Assembly (NCBI GenBank): GCA_025526935.1
Contig: JAHLKD010000095.1
Coordinates: 150,038-214,037, forward strand
Length of the DNA stretch: 64,000 nt
Direction of reading: 5' to 3'
From: Cladochytrium replicatum
Taxonomy: Eukaryota; Chytridiomycota; Chytridiomycetes; Cladochytriales; Cladochytriaceae
Below the pieces are notes generated by a model. The model saw nothing but the letters and a program-made list of their open reading frames with translations. It was not told the DNA's origin and made no database searches. Position 1 is the stretch's first letter. Each line of letters begins with the position of its first letter. A program made the translations under genes and the position numbers. Shown here piece by piece: positions 12,812-64,000 of this stretch.

Positions 12812-13145
12812 ATGACCGGGCACGGTCAACAACAATTTGATGTGAGCAGGCTGGCATTCATGGAATGTGCGAACGGCTAACTTTGTGTTGTTCGAAAGGT
12901 AATGCTCAGCTATCCATGGGCTGACCAGCACAGGGTATGTGAAATCAATTCCGTACGAAGCTCACCATTCTGACCGCAGATTCGATTCATCCAGGTGTTT
13001 AAAATCAGAGACAAGCTCCGCGAACGTGGTGCAGGTGTCTGGATCCACGTCGAGTGCATGCATGGAAACATTTTCACCGCAATGGCGAACGCGATCCTCA
13101 GCAGCACAGTCTTTGTTGCGTGCATCTCCCCGGCTTACGAGAGGA
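12812..13145 (+). pseudogene. Truncated TIR-domain gene copy, 5' exons
   Basis: This is a partial duplicate of the TIR-Sel1 gene just downstream, with the same architecture. Exon 1 starts MTG and ends FD (12812-12841). Exon 2 is 36 bp (12899-12934, VMLSYPWADQHR). Exon 3 starts at 12995 with VFKIRDKLRERGAGVWIHVE and continues through NIFTAMANAILSSTVFVACIS. The intact paralog has a 36-bp exon 2 and the same splice phases. After CISPAYERS the similarity stops, so the region carrying the expected catalytic Glu is gone. From there the opposite strand reads as a relic of the WWK-repeat family. The Sel1 part is absent, so no functional product is expected beyond perhaps a short peptide. Confidence 0.75.
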
Positions 13146-13440
13146 GCGTAAACTCTGCTCGATTTCCACAATTCAAGAACTTAAACTCGTCCAAATTTGC
13201 TCGCATCAATCATTGCCTTCTCAATGTACTTCAGAGTCAGACCACTGTCGCCTGAAAGATTGATTCACGCGTGCCTGCAGCGCTCGCCCCATCCAAAACC
13301 CGAGATGTCCATTCGGCTCTAACCGTTCGATTTCCACCACTCGAGCACCGCGACCATGTCACGGTTGCTTCGGTCAAAACTCTGGTCTCGGTGCACTTCA
13401 ACGGCCCAGTGCACGAGTACCTCAGCTCCTAACCGCTCGT
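13146..13440 (-). pseudogene. Relic fragment of WWK-repeat gene (inverted)
   Basis: Read on the minus strand, this encodes about three decayed units of the repeat that makes up the intact gene at 51816-53450. The pieces are MVAVLEWWKSNG, VLDGASAAGT, SGLTLKYIEKAMIDASKFG and VLELWKSS. They are broken by frame changes and in-frame stops. It lies directly against the truncated TIR copy, so the two families have recombined or inserted into one another here. Confidence 0.6.
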
Positions 13441-13806: not shown

Positions 13807-16639
13807 ATGACGGGGGAAACCGAGGTTGGAGCGGAACAGGCAACGTTGCAGACTTTCGATGTGGGTGAACAGCAATGGAGATTGCGAGTAGGCGTGTATT
13901 TTAACCTGGCAGCCTTGCCTTGCAGGTCATGCTCAGCTATTGTTGGGCCGACCAGCAGAGAGTGAGCCTTCGGCACTACCTTGATACCCAACATCTTTCA
14001 AATGCTGACCATTTCTAGGTCTTTAAAATCAGAGACAAACTCCGCGAACGGGGTCTGCGTGTTTGGATCGATGTGGAGTTCATGGAGGGCGACATTTTCG
14101 ACGCTATGCCTACTGCAATCCTCCACAGCTCGGTCTTTGTCGCTTGTATCTCGTCGGCTTACGCAAAGAGCAAAAACGCAATGCGCGAATTCAAGTTTGC
14201 TCACAACAGAGACCGAATCTCGGCCTACATCTTACTCAGCGACGATCCTATCCATTCATCCATCGAGTTTCTGATGGGTTCCGCACTTTATCAAAAGTGT
14301 TTCAATGACGATGATCTTGATTACAGCGTCGCCGCTGATTTTGTGTTGAGACAGCTTCCTCAACAAACGTCAGTTAACTTCAAAATTGCTTATTAATATC
14401 CTACTCATTGCTTCAATTTAGTTCGCCAGAAACTGGACGCTCCTACGTGAACTTGAAATCCCATGAACTGTATGATGCTCTCGCAATCAATCTCCCAAAG
14501 TACTATGACGCACTGAGTGGCGATCCAGCTGCGCAGAATTTCATTGGGAAGCGCTACTATGACGGAAATGGAGTTGACCAAGACTATTGTCGTGCAGTAC
14601 AATGGTTTCAGAAAGCTGTTTTGCAGGAATACTCAGAGAGTCAAAGAAATCTTGCAGAATGCTATGAGGAAGGAAATGGGATTGAAAAAGATGCAAGCCT
14701 GGCTCTGCAATGGTACAAAAAATCAGCCAATCAGGGCAATGCGAGTGCTCAGAACAAACTTGGATGGTATTATCAGACTGGATATTGCGTTGAAAAGGAC
14801 GTGAGCATAGCTGTGCAATGGTATCAAAAGTCAGCAGAAAATGGAGATGCAGGTGGACAGAACAGTCTTGGGTTGTGCTATAGAAATGAATGCGGAGTCA
14901 AGAAAGACAAAAGCCTTGCTGCATATTGGTTTGAAGGGTCAGCACTACAGGGCAACATATCTGCGCAGTTCAATTTTGGATATTGTTTAGAAAAGGGAGA
15001 AGGTGTTCAGAAAGACATTAATGAGGCTCTATATTGGTACAGAAAAGCTGCAGATCAGAATGATGCTGATGCACAGAATAGACTGGGGTGGTGCTATCAA
15101 AGTGGATGCGGTGTTCCGAAAGATCAATGGTTGGCGTTCTACTGGTACCAAAAGGCTGCAGATCAGGGCCACGCAGCTGCACAGAACAATATTGGATGGT
15201 GTTATCGAACTGGCTTTGGGGTTGAGCTGAATGAAAGTCAGGCAGTGTTTTGGTATCAAAAGTCTGCAGATAATGGGAATGCAAATGGACAGCACAATCT
15301 TGGATGGTGTTACAAAAATGGAATTTGTGCTGAGAAAGATGCAAAAATGGCAGTATATTGGTGCAGAAAGTCAGCAGAACAGGGAAATGCACCTGCACAG
15401 TTTGTTCTTGGATTGTGCTACGAAAATGGGGAAGGGGTTGAGAAGAACATATCTCAAGCAGCATCTTGGTACAAATCTTCAGCAGAGCAAGGAGATCCGG
15501 ATGCACAATTCAAGATTGCAATGTGCTTCACAAAGGGTATTGGAGTTGAGAAAGACGGGAATGAGGCACTGTATTGGCACAGAAAATCAGCGGATCATGG
15601 GAATGCTGCAGCACAAAATAGTATTGGGTGGTGCTATCAAAATGGATTTGGCGTTGAAAAAGATTCGATGCAGGCATTTTACTGGTACACAAAATCAGCA
15701 GAAAGTGGGTTTCCATCAGCTCAGCGCAATCTTGGATTGTGCTATCAAAAAGGAGATGGGATCGAGAAAGACTTCACTCAGGCGGTGTATTGGTACAGAA
15801 AGTCTGCTGAACAGAATGACGCAGATGCACAAAATAGACTGGGATTGTGCTATCAACATGGACATGGGATTGAGTTAGATAGTGAACAGGCAGTCTATTG
15901 GTACAGAAAATCAGCAGAGAAGGGTAATTCAGCTGCACTGGATAGTCTTGGGTGGTGCTACAAAACTGGATTTGGCGTTGTGAGTGATATGGCAGAAGCA
16001 GTAAAGTCTTTCAATATGTCAGCCGAAAAGAATAATGCAAGTGGACAGAACAATCTTGGATTATGCTATCAAAGTGGGCTAGGAGTACACAAAAACAAAG
16101 AGTATGCAGTAACTTTGTTCAAGAAGTCAGCGGATCAGGGCAATGCACATGGACAATTCAACCTTGGGTGGTGCTACCAACATCAAGATGGTGTGGAAAA
16201 AGACTACGATCATGCAGTATATTGGTACAGAAAGTCAGCCGAGCAAGGACATTGTTATGCTCAATATCATCTTGGCTTGTGCTACAAGAAGGGATTGGGA
16301 GTTCAGAAAAATGATCTAGAGGCGGTGCAGTGGTACATAAAATCAGCAGAGCAGGGGCATGCTGGTGCTCAGTGCAAACTCGGGATGTGCTTTCAAACGG
16401 GCCATGGTATCGAGAAGGATGCCAAGAAAGCAGTGTTTTGGTTTTTGAAGGCAGCTCATCAAGGTGAAAAGGGTGCACAATACAAACTGGGAAAGTGCTA
16501 CGAGCATGGAGATGGAGTAGAGAAGGATGGCGAACAGGCGTGGTATTGGTACCGCAAGTCATTAGAGGGTGGTCATTCCCGATCAGAGCATTCGCTAATT
16601 CTGATGACGTTGCGACGGAGCGGACTCTCTTCCGATTGA
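13807..16639 (+). CDS. TIR-domain protein with 19 Sel1 repeats, 885 aa
   Basis: Four exons: 13807-13860, 13926-13961, 14019-14368 and 14422-16639, all joined in frame across GT-AG introns. Residues 19 to about 145 form a TIR_2-type domain: VMLSYCWADQQR, VFKIRDKLRERGLRVWIDVE, then VFVACISSAYAKSKNAMREF. Glu87 in the MREF motif sits where TIR NAD+ hydrolases carry their catalytic Glu. From about residue 170 to 866 there are 19 Sel1-like repeats of 36 residues each (consensus AQxxLGxCYxxGxGVEKDxxxAVxWYxKSAEQGNA), an alpha-solenoid used for protein binding. No membrane segment or signal peptide is visible, so it should be intracellular. A start at the MTG is supported by the same start in the truncated duplicate at 12812. 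An innate-immunity-like or self/non-self sensing role is inference from the domain pairing; NADase activity is untested. Confidence 0.85.
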
Positions 16640-16892
16640 ACTATAGCTAGACAGTATTAATTATCACAGCAATAAACTCCGAATAGCCCTCTAATCTGTC
16701 CAATTATCGATTCAACTCCTCTTATCTCAATCCGCGGTTTGTGACGCCAATCAAGCGCCCCCTTCCCGCGTGTTTGGCACCAAATCGAATCACGGCTTCT
16801 TCATCATAATGGCCCACAGGTGATGACGCTTCGCATTGTGCTCCTTGCCATCTGTTAAAGCCTTTGCTGACGACATCAATCCCTCCAGCGTC

Positions 16893-19800
16893 ATGAGAGC
16901 GGAAGCGACCGCTGTTGCCTCAAACGAACCCGACGACTTGTTCGACGATGGCCCTTTTGGCCCCTTTGTCTCCGGTACTTCGGCTCATCACAGCGCCCTT
17001 CAGCCTGGAAACGCTCTGCACCGTCCGAAGAGCAGTCGCTCCCGTCAACCATCTCGAGCATCCAGTAGTAAACGGCCCCAGAGTCACAAAGATGGCAATG
17101 CCGCTGCCCGTTCTGTTCGCAGTGGCTCTGGTCGCTCTTCTGCTTCTTCATCATCCTCATCTTCTTCACGCTCCTCGTCGTCACGCTCCACTTCGTCGTC
17201 CTCATCGTCATCGACCTCTTCTCGATCCCAACCTCGTCGATATCCCACCCCACCTCTCGTTCACCCACTCTATGGATACGGTCCAACTATGTCGCAGTTC
17301 GACACCGATACTTTTGCGAATGACAACGCTTCTCGGTCTGACATCCCGCCTCTACCTACCAGTTGGCCACACTGGAGAAAGGAACTCTACCTAACCATCC
17401 ACCATCCCCGCACTCTCTATGCTCGGATCCTCCGCTTGATTTTCTTGGCTGCAGTTGTTCTCTCCGTCGTCTCCATCGCACTTTCGACGGTCCCATCTCT
17501 CACGGCCGGTTCGAGATACCACAGGGAACTGTTCTTCATCATCGACGCTTTCGCCACAGCCGTGTTTACAATCGAGTTTGCGCTCCATATGATCGTCGCG
17601 CCTACTTGGAGGGATATGATCGGCTGGGGATACTTCATTGATGTTCTTGCGATCCTGCCGACTTACATTGAGTTGATCTTCTTGGCAGCTCGGAACGAGG
17701 ACATTGTCGATGGTTTCTCGGGGTATAGCGGTCTCGCAATCCTTAGGGTTCTCCGGCTCGTTCGTATTGTTTTGATTTTCAAGTTTTTCGCAAAGTCCAC
17801 AAAGGTAAACAAACTGGATTGCATCATTTGATTCTTGGGGTTCAACATTGCTTTTGTGAATTTAGCTCCAACTGCTTGGGGAGGCGTTCCGGAACTCGGC
17901 GGACGGGATTCTACTCCTCATTTACATCATTCCGCTTCTGGTCGTCTTCTTCGCTTCGCTCGTGTACTATGCCGAGATTGCCAGCTGTTCATTTTCGGTA
18001 AGACAACAATATGCCAACACGCCAGCATTTTTCATTTTGTTGACCATTGATTACTCTCCAAAAAGGATGGACTGTGGCGGTACCAGCTACCCGACGGCCA
18101 ACTCGGCGACCCGACCGCCTTCCAAAGCATCCCGGACTGTTTCTGGCTCGTGATCATCACCCTGACCACGATCGGCTACGGCGACGTGACGCCCAAAACC
18201 GTCCAGGGCAAACTCGTCATGGCCGCCGTGGCCGTGACCTCGATCTTTGTCCTCGCTTTCCCGCTCACGATGATCTCGATGCAGTATTCACATGTCGTCA
18301 GACTGTTCGCGCAGAGACGTAGACGCAAAGCTGAGATGCGGGCGGAGGCGAGGCAGAGGGCTGGGGAGGCAGCGGAGGAGGGTGTTGTGGGGGGTGAAGA
18401 AGAAGGGGGTGGTGGAGGGAGGAGAAAGAGGAGGGGTTGGGGGGTGAGGTTTTCGAGGTTTGGGAGGAGGAACGGTGAAGAGGAGGAGGCACAGAGGAAG
18501 AAGATGGAGGCGAGGAAGATGGAGCAGGTTGAGAAGTGGGTGTTGGGGACGGATGGGAAGGGAGAGGGGCAGAGAGAGAATGAGGCGGGGCCGCATGTCG
18601 CGATATATATCGAAGGTGTGGAAGATGTTGTGCCGAAGGTTGAAATGGACGATGGACCCGCACTGCAGGCTTCTGGAGATGATGTGGATTTGATTGGCGG
18701 AGAATATGAAGTTAAGGTCGATGAAGCCAAATTAAGACAGGAAGGTGATGAAGATAATGTGACGGAGTATCGAATTGACAATCCGGTCGTACCTGACAAT
18801 CGTCGCGTGCCGCGTTTGGAGGAAACCGTATCGGAAGGAACACTCAACGAGGGTCCCGATTCGCTTGATATTTTCCGTCAGAGTGTTCATGTTGGACCGT
18901 CTGCACCATTGATCGTGGTTGGGCCGACTGTTTTTGTAGATCAGGAAGCGATGAGCGCGAACGACGAAGAATATCGAGCTGCCGATGGACCGTTGGTGGA
19001 TGACTTGGTTCATCATCTCGAAAGCTCAGGGACCGAGTACAATGCGGATACTTCGTCCCGGGATGATCCTGCAGATGAAATGACATCAAGAGTGGAGCGT
19101 ACAATGGAACCTGGCAATCAAGATCACGACCATGACAGGACTGCCGAGTCTGAGAACTTGGTGGCCCTATCTGCCGATCCTGTGGACATTGATGTTCGCC
19201 ACACAGAGCACCCTGGGTCATCTCTGTTGAGAAAGGCTCGGAGTCAATCTTCGCTTCGCTTGTCATTGTTGGAAAGATCCATCGTGCGACTCCGTCATCA
19301 CCGTAGTCACGATGAGACGATCACACGGCGAATTCAGCACGATTCGCTCGAAATCCTTTCCGTGAGACATTTTCGGGATCGACAAAGCGATAAACACCAT
19401 GACACTGAACAATGGCAACCGCATGTCCCTCTCCTGCATCAATTTCTCCCAAGTGATGTACATCAGGAAGGAGACGCCCAGAACCATCAACAGCATGACG
19501 AGCAGGACGGTGCTGCATCTGCTGAAGCGTCGCGTGAGCATCGTCATCGACACCACCACCATCACCACCATAGCAGGCACCATGACGATCAATCGGAGAA
19601 TGGCAGCCACGCTCACAGGCATCATCACGAACATCATCATAGCAGTCATCACGAGGAGCAGTCTGAAGCCGGAAGCCACTCTCACAGGCGCCATCACCAC
19701 CGACACCACCATAGCAGCTCGAACCTTGACGTGACGGACAGCCTCTCGCAAACGTCGAGGTCGCATCGACACCATCATCATCGTCACCATCACCATCACC

Positions 19801-20387
19801 ACCACTCTCGTCAGGACTCGCTGGATCGATCTCATGGTTCACAAGCTCTCGATCCCACAGGGTCGGAAACACACTCCCAACAGCACAACGATAACGAACA
19901 CCCACGGGACCCGAATTGGGAGTCGACGTCTAACGCCGGGACCCACACAACCATCACGCCCAAACAGCGGCTCCGGACCACCTTCAACGTTATGAACAGC
20001 TTGCTCCACATGTCGTACCCTCCAACAACACACACGCCGCCCGTCGACACGGACGCGGTCTCAACGACTACGGCAACACAATCTGTTCGAAGGGTGAGAA
20101 CGCGCGCGGGGGTGGTGCCGGACCCGTTCCGAAGGCCGACGAGCTCGACGGGCGTGCAGGGTGCGACGATCGAGTCGATCGAGCTTGCGATGGCAACGTT
20201 GCTTGCGGGAGCCGAGGACGGGTCTGAGTTGGCGTTCCCGGATGTCATGAGGATCGGAGTGAGGGTTGTTGGGTGGGAGCACCAGTATGTTGCGAGGAGT
20301 CAGGAGGACGTGCTGATGTTGAAGATGGCGGTGGGGAGTCAGGAGCAATATCGGTTCATCATGAAGGTTTTGGCTGCGTTGCAGTAG
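16893..20387 (+). CDS. Voltage-gated K+ channel (Kv-type) with long histidine-rich cytoplasmic tail, 1121 aa
   Basis: Exons 16893-17804, 17866-17997 and 18066-20387 join in phase 0. The N-terminus is Ser/Arg-rich. S1 to S4 lie roughly in residues 180-305. S4 reads AILRVLRLVRIVLIFKFF with Arg every third residue, the classic voltage sensor. Exon 2 holds S5 (ILLLIYIIPLLVVFFASLVYY). Exon 3 holds the pore loop with the K+ selectivity filter TLTTIGYGD (about residue 382) and S6. It should be a tetrameric plasma-membrane K+ channel. The remaining ~700 residues are cytoplasmic: a Gly/Arg/Glu-rich stretch, an acidic region, then residues about 839-929 dominated by runs such as HRHHHHHHH and HHHEHHHSSHH, and a structured-looking C-terminus (GATIESIELAMATLLAG onward). 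No T1 domain is seen. The His-rich tail is unusual. Confidence 0.9.
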
Positions 20388-35547: not shown

Positions 35548-36006
35548 TCAAGATATCTGCCAAGTTCTCTCCATTCGAACATTAACAGGCTCCGCAATGT
35601 TCTCCGCTATAGCCTCCCGGACAAACTGTAGTCGGATTTCCACGTGTTTGGTTCTTCCTCGCTCAGTCAGGTTGTGCAAATATGCAATGCACGCTTGATT
35701 GTCTTCGAAGATGGTGAACGCCTTCTTCAGTGCAAAATTGAGCTCTCCGAGAAACATCTTGAGCCAGATCGCTTCCTGTGTCGCCCCTGCAAATGCGTAA
35801 AATTCCGTCTCCATGGTCGACAGTGCTGGGGACCGCTGCAGCTGCGACTTCCAGACAATCGGTCCACCGTTAGGCAGAAACACGTAGCCAGTTGTGCCAT
35901 GTCTTGTAGTCGCATCCGCTCCAGGACCGCTTGCATCGCTATAGCCTGTGATCTGCAGACCGCCAGCCCCGCTGAATTCGATTCCTAGGTGCTTGGTGCT
36001 GACCAA
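35548..36006 (-). pseudogene. copia RNase H domain
   Basis: Encodes the copia-type RNase H: GYSDASGPGAD (first catalytic Asp), TTGYVFLPNGGPIVWKS, SPALSTMETEFYAFAGAT (catalytic Glu), IFEDNQACI and KHVEIRLQFVREAI. It lies one frame away from RT because a base is missing in an A-run near 36018 on the coding strand, so it could not be translated as part of the polyprotein. Confidence 0.85.
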
Positions 36007-36880
36007 GTATCGCAGAACTTTTTACCGCCTTCACGTCCTCTGCGCATGGATCCTCGAGGTGCCGTGAGGCTTCCATGATAGCGTGGGCGATATCAGGTCT
36101 GGTGCCTAACATCAACAACATCAACGCTCCTACTGCTTCCCGATATGGATACTCGCCCTTGGCAATTGGTGTACGTCGTCCATCTCGTTGCTCTTCCGGC
36201 GTTGCCACTGGGTTCGCCTCGTCCATCTTGAATTTCTTTAAGATCTTTTCGACGTATGTGGTCTGATCCAACCGCAGGCTTCCACCACCACCGCGAGTTA
36301 TTCGCATTCCTAAGTAACTCTCGGCATCCTCCTCCTCGCTGATTGCAAACGCTGCCCGTAAGATCTCAAAAACCTTTTCAACCATTGCCAGCGGTCCTGC
36401 CACTAGTGCATTATCTACAAACACCGCAACTAGCGCCGAGCTCGCCAGGTTCTCATTCCACAGGACGTAGACGCACGAGTTGCTTCGTAAGCGCCGCAGC
36501 CCAGATTTTTGCATTTTCTCATCAAACTCCCGATTCCACTCCATCGCCGACTGCCGCAGACCGTAGCGAGCCCTTGAAACCAAGTATACCTTGCCCGTTC
36601 TGTTGCCTTTGACCTCCGGCGGAAATTCCACATACACTTTGTGTTTCAGCAGCGCGTTGAGGTAAGCTGTCCATACATCTCCCTTCTTTAGTTTCCATCT
36701 GAAGGTTGCGGCTAGCGCGCAAATCAGTCTGAGGGTGACAAAGTCAAGCACTTGCACAAACGTTTCATCAAAGTCCACTCCTGCGCACTGCGAGAATCCT
36801 TTGGCGACAAGTCGAGCCTTAAACCAGTCGTGTTGCCCATCTGCATGAACCTTTCTCCTCAGGACCCACTTGCACCCCAC
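35939..36880 (-). pseudogene. copia reverse transcriptase domain
   Basis: RVT_2 domain: KARLVAKGFSQCAGVDFDET, then the first-Asp motif KKGDVWTAYLNALL, GLRQSAMEWNREFD, and the active-site box VAVFVDNALVAG. Copia enzymes have YVDD here, so the second catalytic Asp is Asn. The frame is lost before RNase H. This copy should be catalytically dead. Confidence 0.9.
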
Positions 36881-36910
36881 AGCCCGCTCTTCAGGTGGTA
36901 GATCGACTAT

Positions 36911-62593: not shown

Positions 62594-63845
62594 TTAAAAG
62601 AGTGGGTTATCATCAGTTGCTTCCAACTCTAATACCACATCAAAATCCTCGCCAAAATTGTGCACCTTTACAAAATCCTTACTAACATCACTTTTTGAAT
62701 CTAGGGAATCATTTTTGAACGGTTCTTCAGCACTCAATTGATGCAACCAGTCATGACGGCACATCAACGCATTTATTGTTCTTGGAGCAAGGCGGTTGCG
62801 AGTTGCAGGTACCAAATCAACCCCGGCTGAAAACTTTCGTTCGACTGGAGCGCTTGTTGCTGGTATTCCTAAATAGTCCATTGCCATCTGGCTTAGGGCT
62901 GGAAAGTTCACACTTCCAACGGTCTTCCACCAGTCCATAATATTGATTGGCTTCCCATCAGAATCAATACCGCGGAGTACCTGATCGCCAAGATAGCGAT
63001 CCAGCTCATCTTTTTCCTCAGGAATCTCTTCTTGCCAGATGAAAACGGATCTAATGGCTCTCAAGCGTTCAGCGTCCGTTTTTTTCTGTCTATCACCGGA
63101 AGCTCCGCTCGAATCGTGTCGACGTTCTGGCGTGTTTCCAAAAACATCGGCACCACTGTTCTTGATTTTCCGTGACTTATACGATTCCTCCCAGACTTTC
63201 CGCACTAGGGTGACCTGATCCCTTCCTACATCTTTCTCCCAAGCCTTTGAAAATCGATAATATTGATCCTTAAAACGAGGATCGAGTACCGTAGCAACTG
63301 CTAAACACGGGCTCTTAGCGATTGAGTAATATATTCTCAGCTTATCTAGTGCATTTCGAAATGCTTTGGTGAAAGTTTCATCTAATTCTGCATCCTCTAG
63401 GTCCTCCAGTTGATCGATAAGATCGTTGTAAAATGGAATAACAAGCGGAAGTGTTGGATATCTAGACCCCTCGATTGCCTTTGATATAACCTCGAAAACA
63501 CTCAAACCATCCCGGATCTTCTGTAGGACCTCCCATTGCTTTGGATTTATTGACCAATCTTTCAAAGAATCTTCAATCCAGCATATTTTGTCCATTGCCT
63601 CTCGTAGCTGTAAGGCTCGTTTGACCATATAGAACGTGCTATTCCAGCGAGTTGTCACATCGATAATTGGTAATAGAGGAACCAGTTTCACAAATCGGCA
63701 CGAATCAATAAATGAGCTTCGTCGTTTTGGGGAAGACCGGATTCCTCTGACTAGCCGTCGAAGAAGGTTTATGACATTAGCGCCGGAGTTATCGTCATTT
63801 GCGACTGTGTCCCCTGCGGGCGCGAATGTATCGATAAAATCCTTT
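62594..63845 (-). pseudogene. hAT-family transposase, 5'-truncated at the telomere
   Basis: The minus frame is open from the telomeric junction at 63845 to TAA 62596-62594. It contains the RNase H-like core end (DVTTRWNSTFYMVKRALQLR), a helical domain with AKSPCLAVATVLDPRFKDQY, and the hAT C-terminal dimerisation signature (MDYLGIPATSAPVERKFSAG, then NRLAPRTINALMC). The N-terminal BED finger and the first catalytic Asp region are missing because the frame meets the telomere repeat. No ATG is present near the junction, so no functional enzyme is expected. Confidence 0.88.
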
Positions 63846-64000
63846 GGTTAGTTAGGGTTAGTTAGGGTTAGTTAGGGTTAGTTAGGGTTAGTTAGGGTTA
63901 GTTAGGGTTAGTTAGGGTTAGTTAGGGTTAGTTAGGGTTAGTTAGGGTTAGTTAGGGTTAGTTAGGGTAGTTAGGGTTAGTTAGGGTTAGTTAGGGTTAG
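63846..64000 (+). repeat. Telomeric array, 10-bp unit TTAGTTAGGG
   Basis: About 15 copies of TTAGTTAGGG run to the window end, G-rich strand 5' to 3' outward, as expected at a right chromosome end. One unit near 63966 lacks a T. The canonical TTAGGG is embedded in each unit but is always followed by an extra TTAG. Confidence 0.9.

Follow-up and report, generated by a model that had tools for sequence, protein, structure and literature searches.

The window, which is the whole 64,000-nucleotide stretch of Cladochytrium replicatum DNA that was analyzed, carries on its plus strand a four-exon gene (13807-16639) encoding a protein of 885 amino acids, with its stop codon at 16639. Exon 1 (13807..13860) supplies residues 1-18 (MTGETEVGAEQATLQTFD) and begins at 13807 with the sole ATG of its open frame; an extra 5' exon further upstream is possible. 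It is followed by intron 1 (13861..13925; 65 nt, GTGGGT...TTGCAG) and by the 12 codons of exon 2 (13926..13961; VMLSYCWADQQR), which by comparison correspond to TIR strand beta-A. Intron 2 (13962..14018; 57 nt, GTGAGC...TTCTAG) precedes exon 3 (14019..14368), which encodes the remainder of the TIR domain (residues 31-146), and intron 3 (14369..14421; 53 nt, GTCAGT...TTTAG) separates this from exon 4 (14422..16639), where 2,218 nt of uninterrupted open frame encode a linker, a Sel1 array, a 19-residue tail and the stop. All three introns are of the GT-AG type, and the weakest of the junctions is intron 3 with its GTCAGT donor. The paralogues, which we designate by their contigs, provide comparisons at each of these junctions. 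As judged by eye, the 'FD' that ends exon 1 is likewise followed by GT in C13, C88, C141, C126, C123 and a decayed copy upstream of the gene, and is replaced by 'ID' in C16, while C9 lacks both intron 1 and the 'FD'. Paralogue C9 also lacks intron 2, such that its exon 2 and exon 3 sequences are contiguous in the genome (VMLSYCWKNQTR-VFKLRDRL), and paralogue C13 has no intron at the position of intron 3.

Two families account for the recognizable domain content of the protein. The first is Pfam TIR_2, which matches residues 19-103 (13926..14237, interrupted by intron 2) at E 6e-16 and 59.5 bits against a cut-off of 28; paralogue C9 additionally passes the TIR model PF01582 (23.3 against a cut-off of 21.3), and the TIR assignment is thus supported at the level of sequence profiles. 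The second is Sel1, which scores 605 bits against a cut-off of 30.7 over 18 stretches of the 885 residues. Cutting the array every 36 residues yields 19 whole, gap-free repeats (14528..16579, plus strand; residues 183-866), the first of them 36 residues beyond the end of exon 3, and a profile built from these repeats recovers 19 domains in the same frame and no domain elsewhere within the window. The coordinates, the 19 repeats and the position of a putative catalytic glutamate, Glu87, had all been read correctly from the sequence alone, as the gene model, the Pfam matches and the own-repeat profile confirm. The Sel1 units share a mean pairwise identity of 0.46. Position 9 of the repeat (LG-x-C-Y) is a cysteine in 17 of the 19 units, and cysteine is frequent there in the arrays of C88 and C141 as well. 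A Pfam search of the 885 residues at E ≤0.1 found no nucleotide-binding family (NB-ARC, NACHT or related ATPase) and no LRR family, by which a Toll-like receptor would be recognized.

Directly upstream of the gene lies the decayed second TIR copy (12899..13255, plus strand), comprising an exon 2-like segment (12899-12934) and an exon 3-like segment (12995-13255). It is 65-67% identical to the window TIR over 60-62 residues, has lost the Glu block and ends in a stop, and the own-repeat profile detects no Sel1 repeat between it and the intact gene. The window contains 28 neighboring frames of at least 230 codons, of which 18 were scanned with Pfam and seven returned a match: two ion-channel frames directly downstream of the gene (16827-20384), a Copia-type reverse transcriptase (35942-36910, minus strand), a hAT transposase (62597-63847, minus strand), a myotubularin-type phosphatase, an ankyrin protein and a TFIID subunit. 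No known defense gene is found among these seven named frames.

The sequence-only reading had proposed that the TIR domain and the Sel1 repeats are joined in frame, and this is upheld by the 885-residue model, by the joined exon 2-exon 3 junction of C9 and by paralogue C13, where one 405-codon frame, uninterrupted by an intron, runs through a TIR exon and six Sel1 units. The linker is also partly alike in C13 and the window gene (HELYD..LA). Genome-wide, there are five loci at which no more than 3 kb separate a TIR match from a Sel1 match, namely the window gene on C95 and those on C13, C88, C141 and C123, with the decayed upstream copy forming a sixth row in the count. Random scatter of 77 TIR matches and 27 Sel1 clusters would yield 0.25 such pairs (P 6e-6), where 27 is a lower bound on the clusters (threshold E ≤1e-5, with scores for 150 out of 254 candidates). 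This estimate treats the loci as independent, whereas the five are kin; they therefore reflect one ancestral fusion that has been kept rather than five events, and the P value counts that fusion repeatedly. The single frame of C13 is accordingly stronger evidence for the fusion than the proximity statistic.

The fused gene is thus open, conserved and present in multiple copies, and the copies differ considerably in their arrays. There are six Sel1 units in C13, ten in C141, 16 in C88 (within a 646-codon frame) and 19 in the window gene, while in C123 a frame with two units is accompanied by one more match in a different frame. Identity among the units within an array ranges from 0.44 to 0.48. 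Only the first unit of the window array finds its best match in the same-numbered unit of all three of C13, C141 and C88; beyond it, no one-to-one repeat order extends across the three paralogous arrays. No Sel1 was detected in the 4.8 kb around the family TIR on C126, 4.2 kb around that on C9 and 3.3 kb around that on C16. At the C126 locus (C126:15800-20600, L043), the frame ends soon after the TIR domain, and beyond two stops an unnamed open stretch continues in that frame.

One of the key features of the family is the conservation of its putative catalytic glutamate, Glu87 (14187..14189, plus strand), which lies in an NAMREF motif. The exons of C13, C88, C126, C141, C9 and C123 are 45-68% identical to the window TIR exon and that of C16 is 34% identical, and these eight family rows share 16 invariant columns, including the Trp of VW and the NAM.E block. 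A broader alignment of 19 rows was drawn from the 77 TIR places in the genome and comprises the eight family rows, eight others, among the matches listed, that reach the Glu column, two NLR TIRs and the decayed upstream copy; a decayed copy on C15, the NLR TIR rows L032 and L033, and places ending short of the Glu column were excluded. The glutamate is present in 18 of the 19 rows, the sole loss being in the decayed upstream copy, and by eye it is present in L032 and L033 as well. The Trp of 'VWID' is found in all 19. The assignment of Glu87 as a catalytic-type residue, already suggested from the sequence alone, is borne out by this conservation and by its alignment with the corresponding Glu of Cat1 (in WCWDE) and of RPP1 (in WCLDE), both of which we take to be catalytic. 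TIR NADases usually carry an aromatic residue four positions before the catalytic Glu. None of the 19 rows has an aromatic there; the residue is Asn in 15 rows, the window gene included, Ser in two, and Asp and Thr in one each. NAD+ cleavage by the window TIR is therefore plausible and nothing stronger, since Glu87 occupies the catalytic column but the aromatic is missing. Paralogue C88 has further lost the Asp after the Trp and the BB-loop Gly.

The TIR exon itself appears to be under constraint. In comparison with C13, exon 3 has a pN of 0.18 and a pS of 0.72, giving a dN/dS of about 0.08 at a synonymous divergence close to saturation, and the corresponding ratio with C88 is 0.29; because several pairs have reached saturation at synonymous sites, these values indicate constraint only roughly. 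A tree of the TIR exons, left unrooted as exons of this length are too short for rooted claims, has good support on only one of its 14 inner branches. Seven TIRs of the TIR-Sel1 family are split from two NLR TIRs with support of 99/99 in this tree, and neither a single clade of the seven family TIRs (p-AU 0.315) nor one of the five Sel1-bearing TIRs (p-AU 0.167) is rejected as a constraint. A long bacterial row placed beside C123 is probably a false placement. The excluded copy on C15 (C15:500183-500497, L018) is C13-like by eye and carries an internal stop.

When compared with solved structures, the single window TIR yields nothing significant, its best match being Cat1 at E 0.47. An eight-row profile of exon 3 likewise ranks Cat1, a CRISPR-associated TIR and presumably an NADase, as its best match, at E 2.5e-4; the plant TIRs RPP1, L6 and Roq1 follow below significance (E 0.17-0.87), with the noise level of this search marked by an antibody fragment at E 0.12. 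Among plasmids, the window TIR matches one record, which encodes a TIR protein from a cyanobacterium, Gloeothece (33% across 84 residues, with E 5e-5). The gene for this protein adjoins another TIR gene as well as one for a WD40 protein, and has no annotated Sel1 gene in the 5.3 kb around it. A scan with the Gloeothece protein returns two bacterial loci. Searching plasmids with the whole protein produces 1,545 records, and none of the best 25 starts before query residue 86. The fusion of Sel1 solenoids with TIR domains in bacterial defense-like proteins, which the sequence-only reading had cited as precedent, was not seen in a small sample: in the phylum of a cyanobacterial MAG, 16 of 98 genomes contain TIR_2 at E 1e-15 or better, and Sel1 lies beside bacterial TIR_2 at none of 30 loci with short flanks from that one phylum. 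Separately, motif scans for prokaryotic and viral kin, which test the NAM[RQK]E block only, returned 57 stretches on genome contigs and eight on viral contigs, none of which was confirmed. The wider kinship to bacterial TIRs is thus ordinary and points to no particular origin.

The source genome (50.5 Mb in 198 contigs) contains seven matches to Chitin_synth_1N and seven to IFT46_B_C, four of the latter in an inverted pair with internal stops, which a search blind to introns would be expected to give. Neither family has a match in 14 prokaryote controls, and, from what we take the two families to signify, the source can fairly be read as a flagellated fungus. TIR domains, although thought uncommon in true fungi at the outset, are not so in this genome: a six-frame search yields 71 TIR_2 matches at E 0.001 or better, and six further places emerge only from searches with the window exon, for a total of 77. 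A STAND query taken from a stretch of C80 gives 62 matches. Of the 77 TIRs, 34 have a STAND match at most 2.5 kb downstream on their own strand, and 31 of the 34 STAND matches of at least 560 bases have a TIR directly upstream. In the two loci examined, one on C61 and one on C80, the TIR is followed by a domain of the NPHP3_N or NACHT type and by an array of WD40 units, and from their domain order such loci are classified here as TIR-STAND-WD40 NLRs. Long STAND matches with an upstream TIR occur on contigs C61, C63, C80, C71 and C38 (e.g., L046 and L047), many of them on C61 and C63. The proposal that the window protein represents a design outside that of the usual NLR thus holds in that it lacks a recognizable nucleotide-binding domain. 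As a lone alternative to NLRs it does not hold, since the presence of the TIR-NLR set makes the window gene one branch of a shared TIR repertoire.

The two branches also differ in the condition of their repeats. Within-gene identity of the WD40 units is 0.75 in one array (five units) and 0.83 in another (12 units), and the 12-unit array has five positions with four or more different residues. According to the available text of a 2014 survey, the repeats of fungal NLRs are strongly conserved internally (PMC4986451). The Sel1 arrays, in contrast to these two WD40 arrays, are unhomogenized (0.44-0.48 vs 0.75-0.83), and on their sequences they display no sign of rapid recognition evolution, so that binding of a fixed partner is no less likely than a role as a pathogen sensor under fast evolution. 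The same survey, in its available text, reports no NLRs in chytrids (PMC4986451), so the TIR-STAND NLR set may be of wider interest than the window gene. A 2022 paper, as represented in its accessible portion, describes TIR-like effectors in Pezizomycotina and mentions earlier reports of TIR in the NLRs of Chytridiomycota (PMC9815663).

Based upon these features, we favor, with a probability of roughly one half, an intracellular TIR signaling protein in which a partner bound by the Sel1 array gathers TIR domains into an NAD+-consuming enzyme or an assembly. The protein would reside inside the cell, where its solenoid could bind either a non-self ligand or, with equal likelihood, a host protein or complex, and would bring several copies of the protein together. 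Clustered TIR domains could then constitute an NAD+-consuming enzyme or an assembly that signals or kills, in a presumptive role in immunity or cell death, and the gene would be a STAND-free member of a repertoire that holds many TIR-STAND-WD40 NLRs. TIR domains become active by assembly, and retention of the glutamate suggests NAD+ chemistry. Two features of the sequences appear to count in the opposite direction: the unhomogenized Sel1 arrays against the sensing of pathogens, and the lack of an aromatic four residues before the Glu against catalysis. It also counts against this reading that eukaryotic Sel1 proteins are mostly scaffolds. A more ambitious scheme, which we regard as speculative, would be a two-branch TIR immunity of zoosporic fungi, in which TIR-STAND-WD40 proteins with fast-changing repeats operate beside ATPase-free TIR-Sel1 proteins with stable ones, the latter using the solenoid alone to sense and to cluster the TIR, and an active site with Asn where an aromatic is usual to generate an NAD+-derived signal.

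Several alternatives should be weighed against this signaling protein. Firstly, the TIR domain might be a non-enzymatic adaptor that only assembles with other TIRs, such as those of the NLRs, with the Sel1 array tying assembly to a client and the Glu kept for structural reasons. The uniformly non-aromatic position before the Glu would be expected of such an adaptor, many NLR TIRs are at hand as partners, and C88 has shed further conserved residues yet retains its 16-unit array in a 646-codon frame. However, the Glu persists in every aligned row except the decayed copy and the best solved profile match, Cat1, is an NADase, for which reasons we consider the adaptor possible but improbable. Secondly, the protein could be a housekeeping or developmental scaffold that functions in the cell wall, protein quality control or zoospore behavior rather than in immunity, and in which the TIR would serve interactions or metabolism. 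Known fungal Sel1 proteins are scaffolds, and this explanation would accommodate the unhomogenized arrays, the constrained TIR exon and the ordinary genes or transposons that make up the seven named neighbors. The variation in array length among paralogues (2-3, 6, 10, 16 and 19 units) speaks against it, as do the decayed copies beside the window gene and on C15, together a pattern of birth and death more typical of conflict genes; such a scaffold therefore seems a rather doubtful explanation. Lastly, a gene-model artefact or pseudogene, with TIR and Sel1 as separate or dead genes side by side, might be entertained from the less common form of the intron 3 donor and from the decayed copy directly upstream, but it is very unlikely given the joined C9 junction and the single C13 frame, with the open exon 4 and the rough constraint on the TIR exon also against it.

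The architecture has parallels among known systems. The closest are in the same genome, where the TIR-STAND-WD40 NLRs (a HET-E/NWD-like design) share with the window protein an N-terminal TIR, the same Glu block and superstructure-forming repeats; they differ in that an ATPase of the NPHP3_N/NACHT-like kind separates their TIR from their repeats, and in that these repeats are WD40 rather than Sel1 and more alike in the two examined. Among solved structures, Cat1 (CRISPR-associated TIR 1, PDB 9mud) is the nearest TIR by profile and aligns at the Glu, but has a Trp in its WCWDE block where the window family has Asn, and it belongs to a CRISPR system. The TIRs of the plant TIR-NLRs RPP1, L6 and Roq1 align in their TIR blocks, and that of RPP1 at the Glu, although their profile matches fall below significance as given above. 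Plant TIR-NLRs carry NB-ARC and LRR where the window protein has Sel1. Receptor-type genes joined to Sel1-like repeats are described in the accessible text on KfNLRs (Kf presumably Klebsormidium), which differ in having an NB domain and in belonging to an alga (PMC7145615). Avs5 (AVAST type 5, Sir2-STAND-repeat) is, in the available portion of its description, a bacterial Sir2 NADase immune protein that senses a phage protein, and in two members of the group the C-terminal repeat domain is predicted to contain units of Sel1-like type (PMC12931631). It thus resembles the window protein in combining an NAD+-cleaving effector domain with a C-terminal array, and differs in that the effector is Sir2 rather than TIR, a STAND ATPase is present and the protein is bacterial (PMC12931631).

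Our searches of the open-access PMC literature found no fungal TIR-Sel1 protein. As far as these searches reach, the TIR-Sel1 fusion is new within the open-access literature, whereas the combination of TIR with superstructure-forming repeats was already known; TIR-Sel1 proteins may well be present, though unremarked, among the predicted proteins of other chytrids. TIR signaling is common to bacteria, plants and animals. In fungi, judging by the accessible part of the open-access literature, it appears to be thinly described. The occurrence of TIR-NLRs and an ATPase-free TIR-Sel1 family in one fungus would allow one to ask whether TIR enzymes serve fungal defense, and whether TIR activation by a solenoid can dispense with a STAND motor. 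The gene is compact enough for testing in yeast.

A few further observations concern this genome. Equal or near-equal scores were obtained for matches in the pairs C9/C24, C57/C69 and C42/C50 and for an inverted pair on C45, which suggests segmental duplications or uncollapsed haplotypes, and some of the counts may include them. Finally, three near-identical short TIR exons lie on C44, C98 and C102 (L022-L024) and are perhaps recent duplicates.
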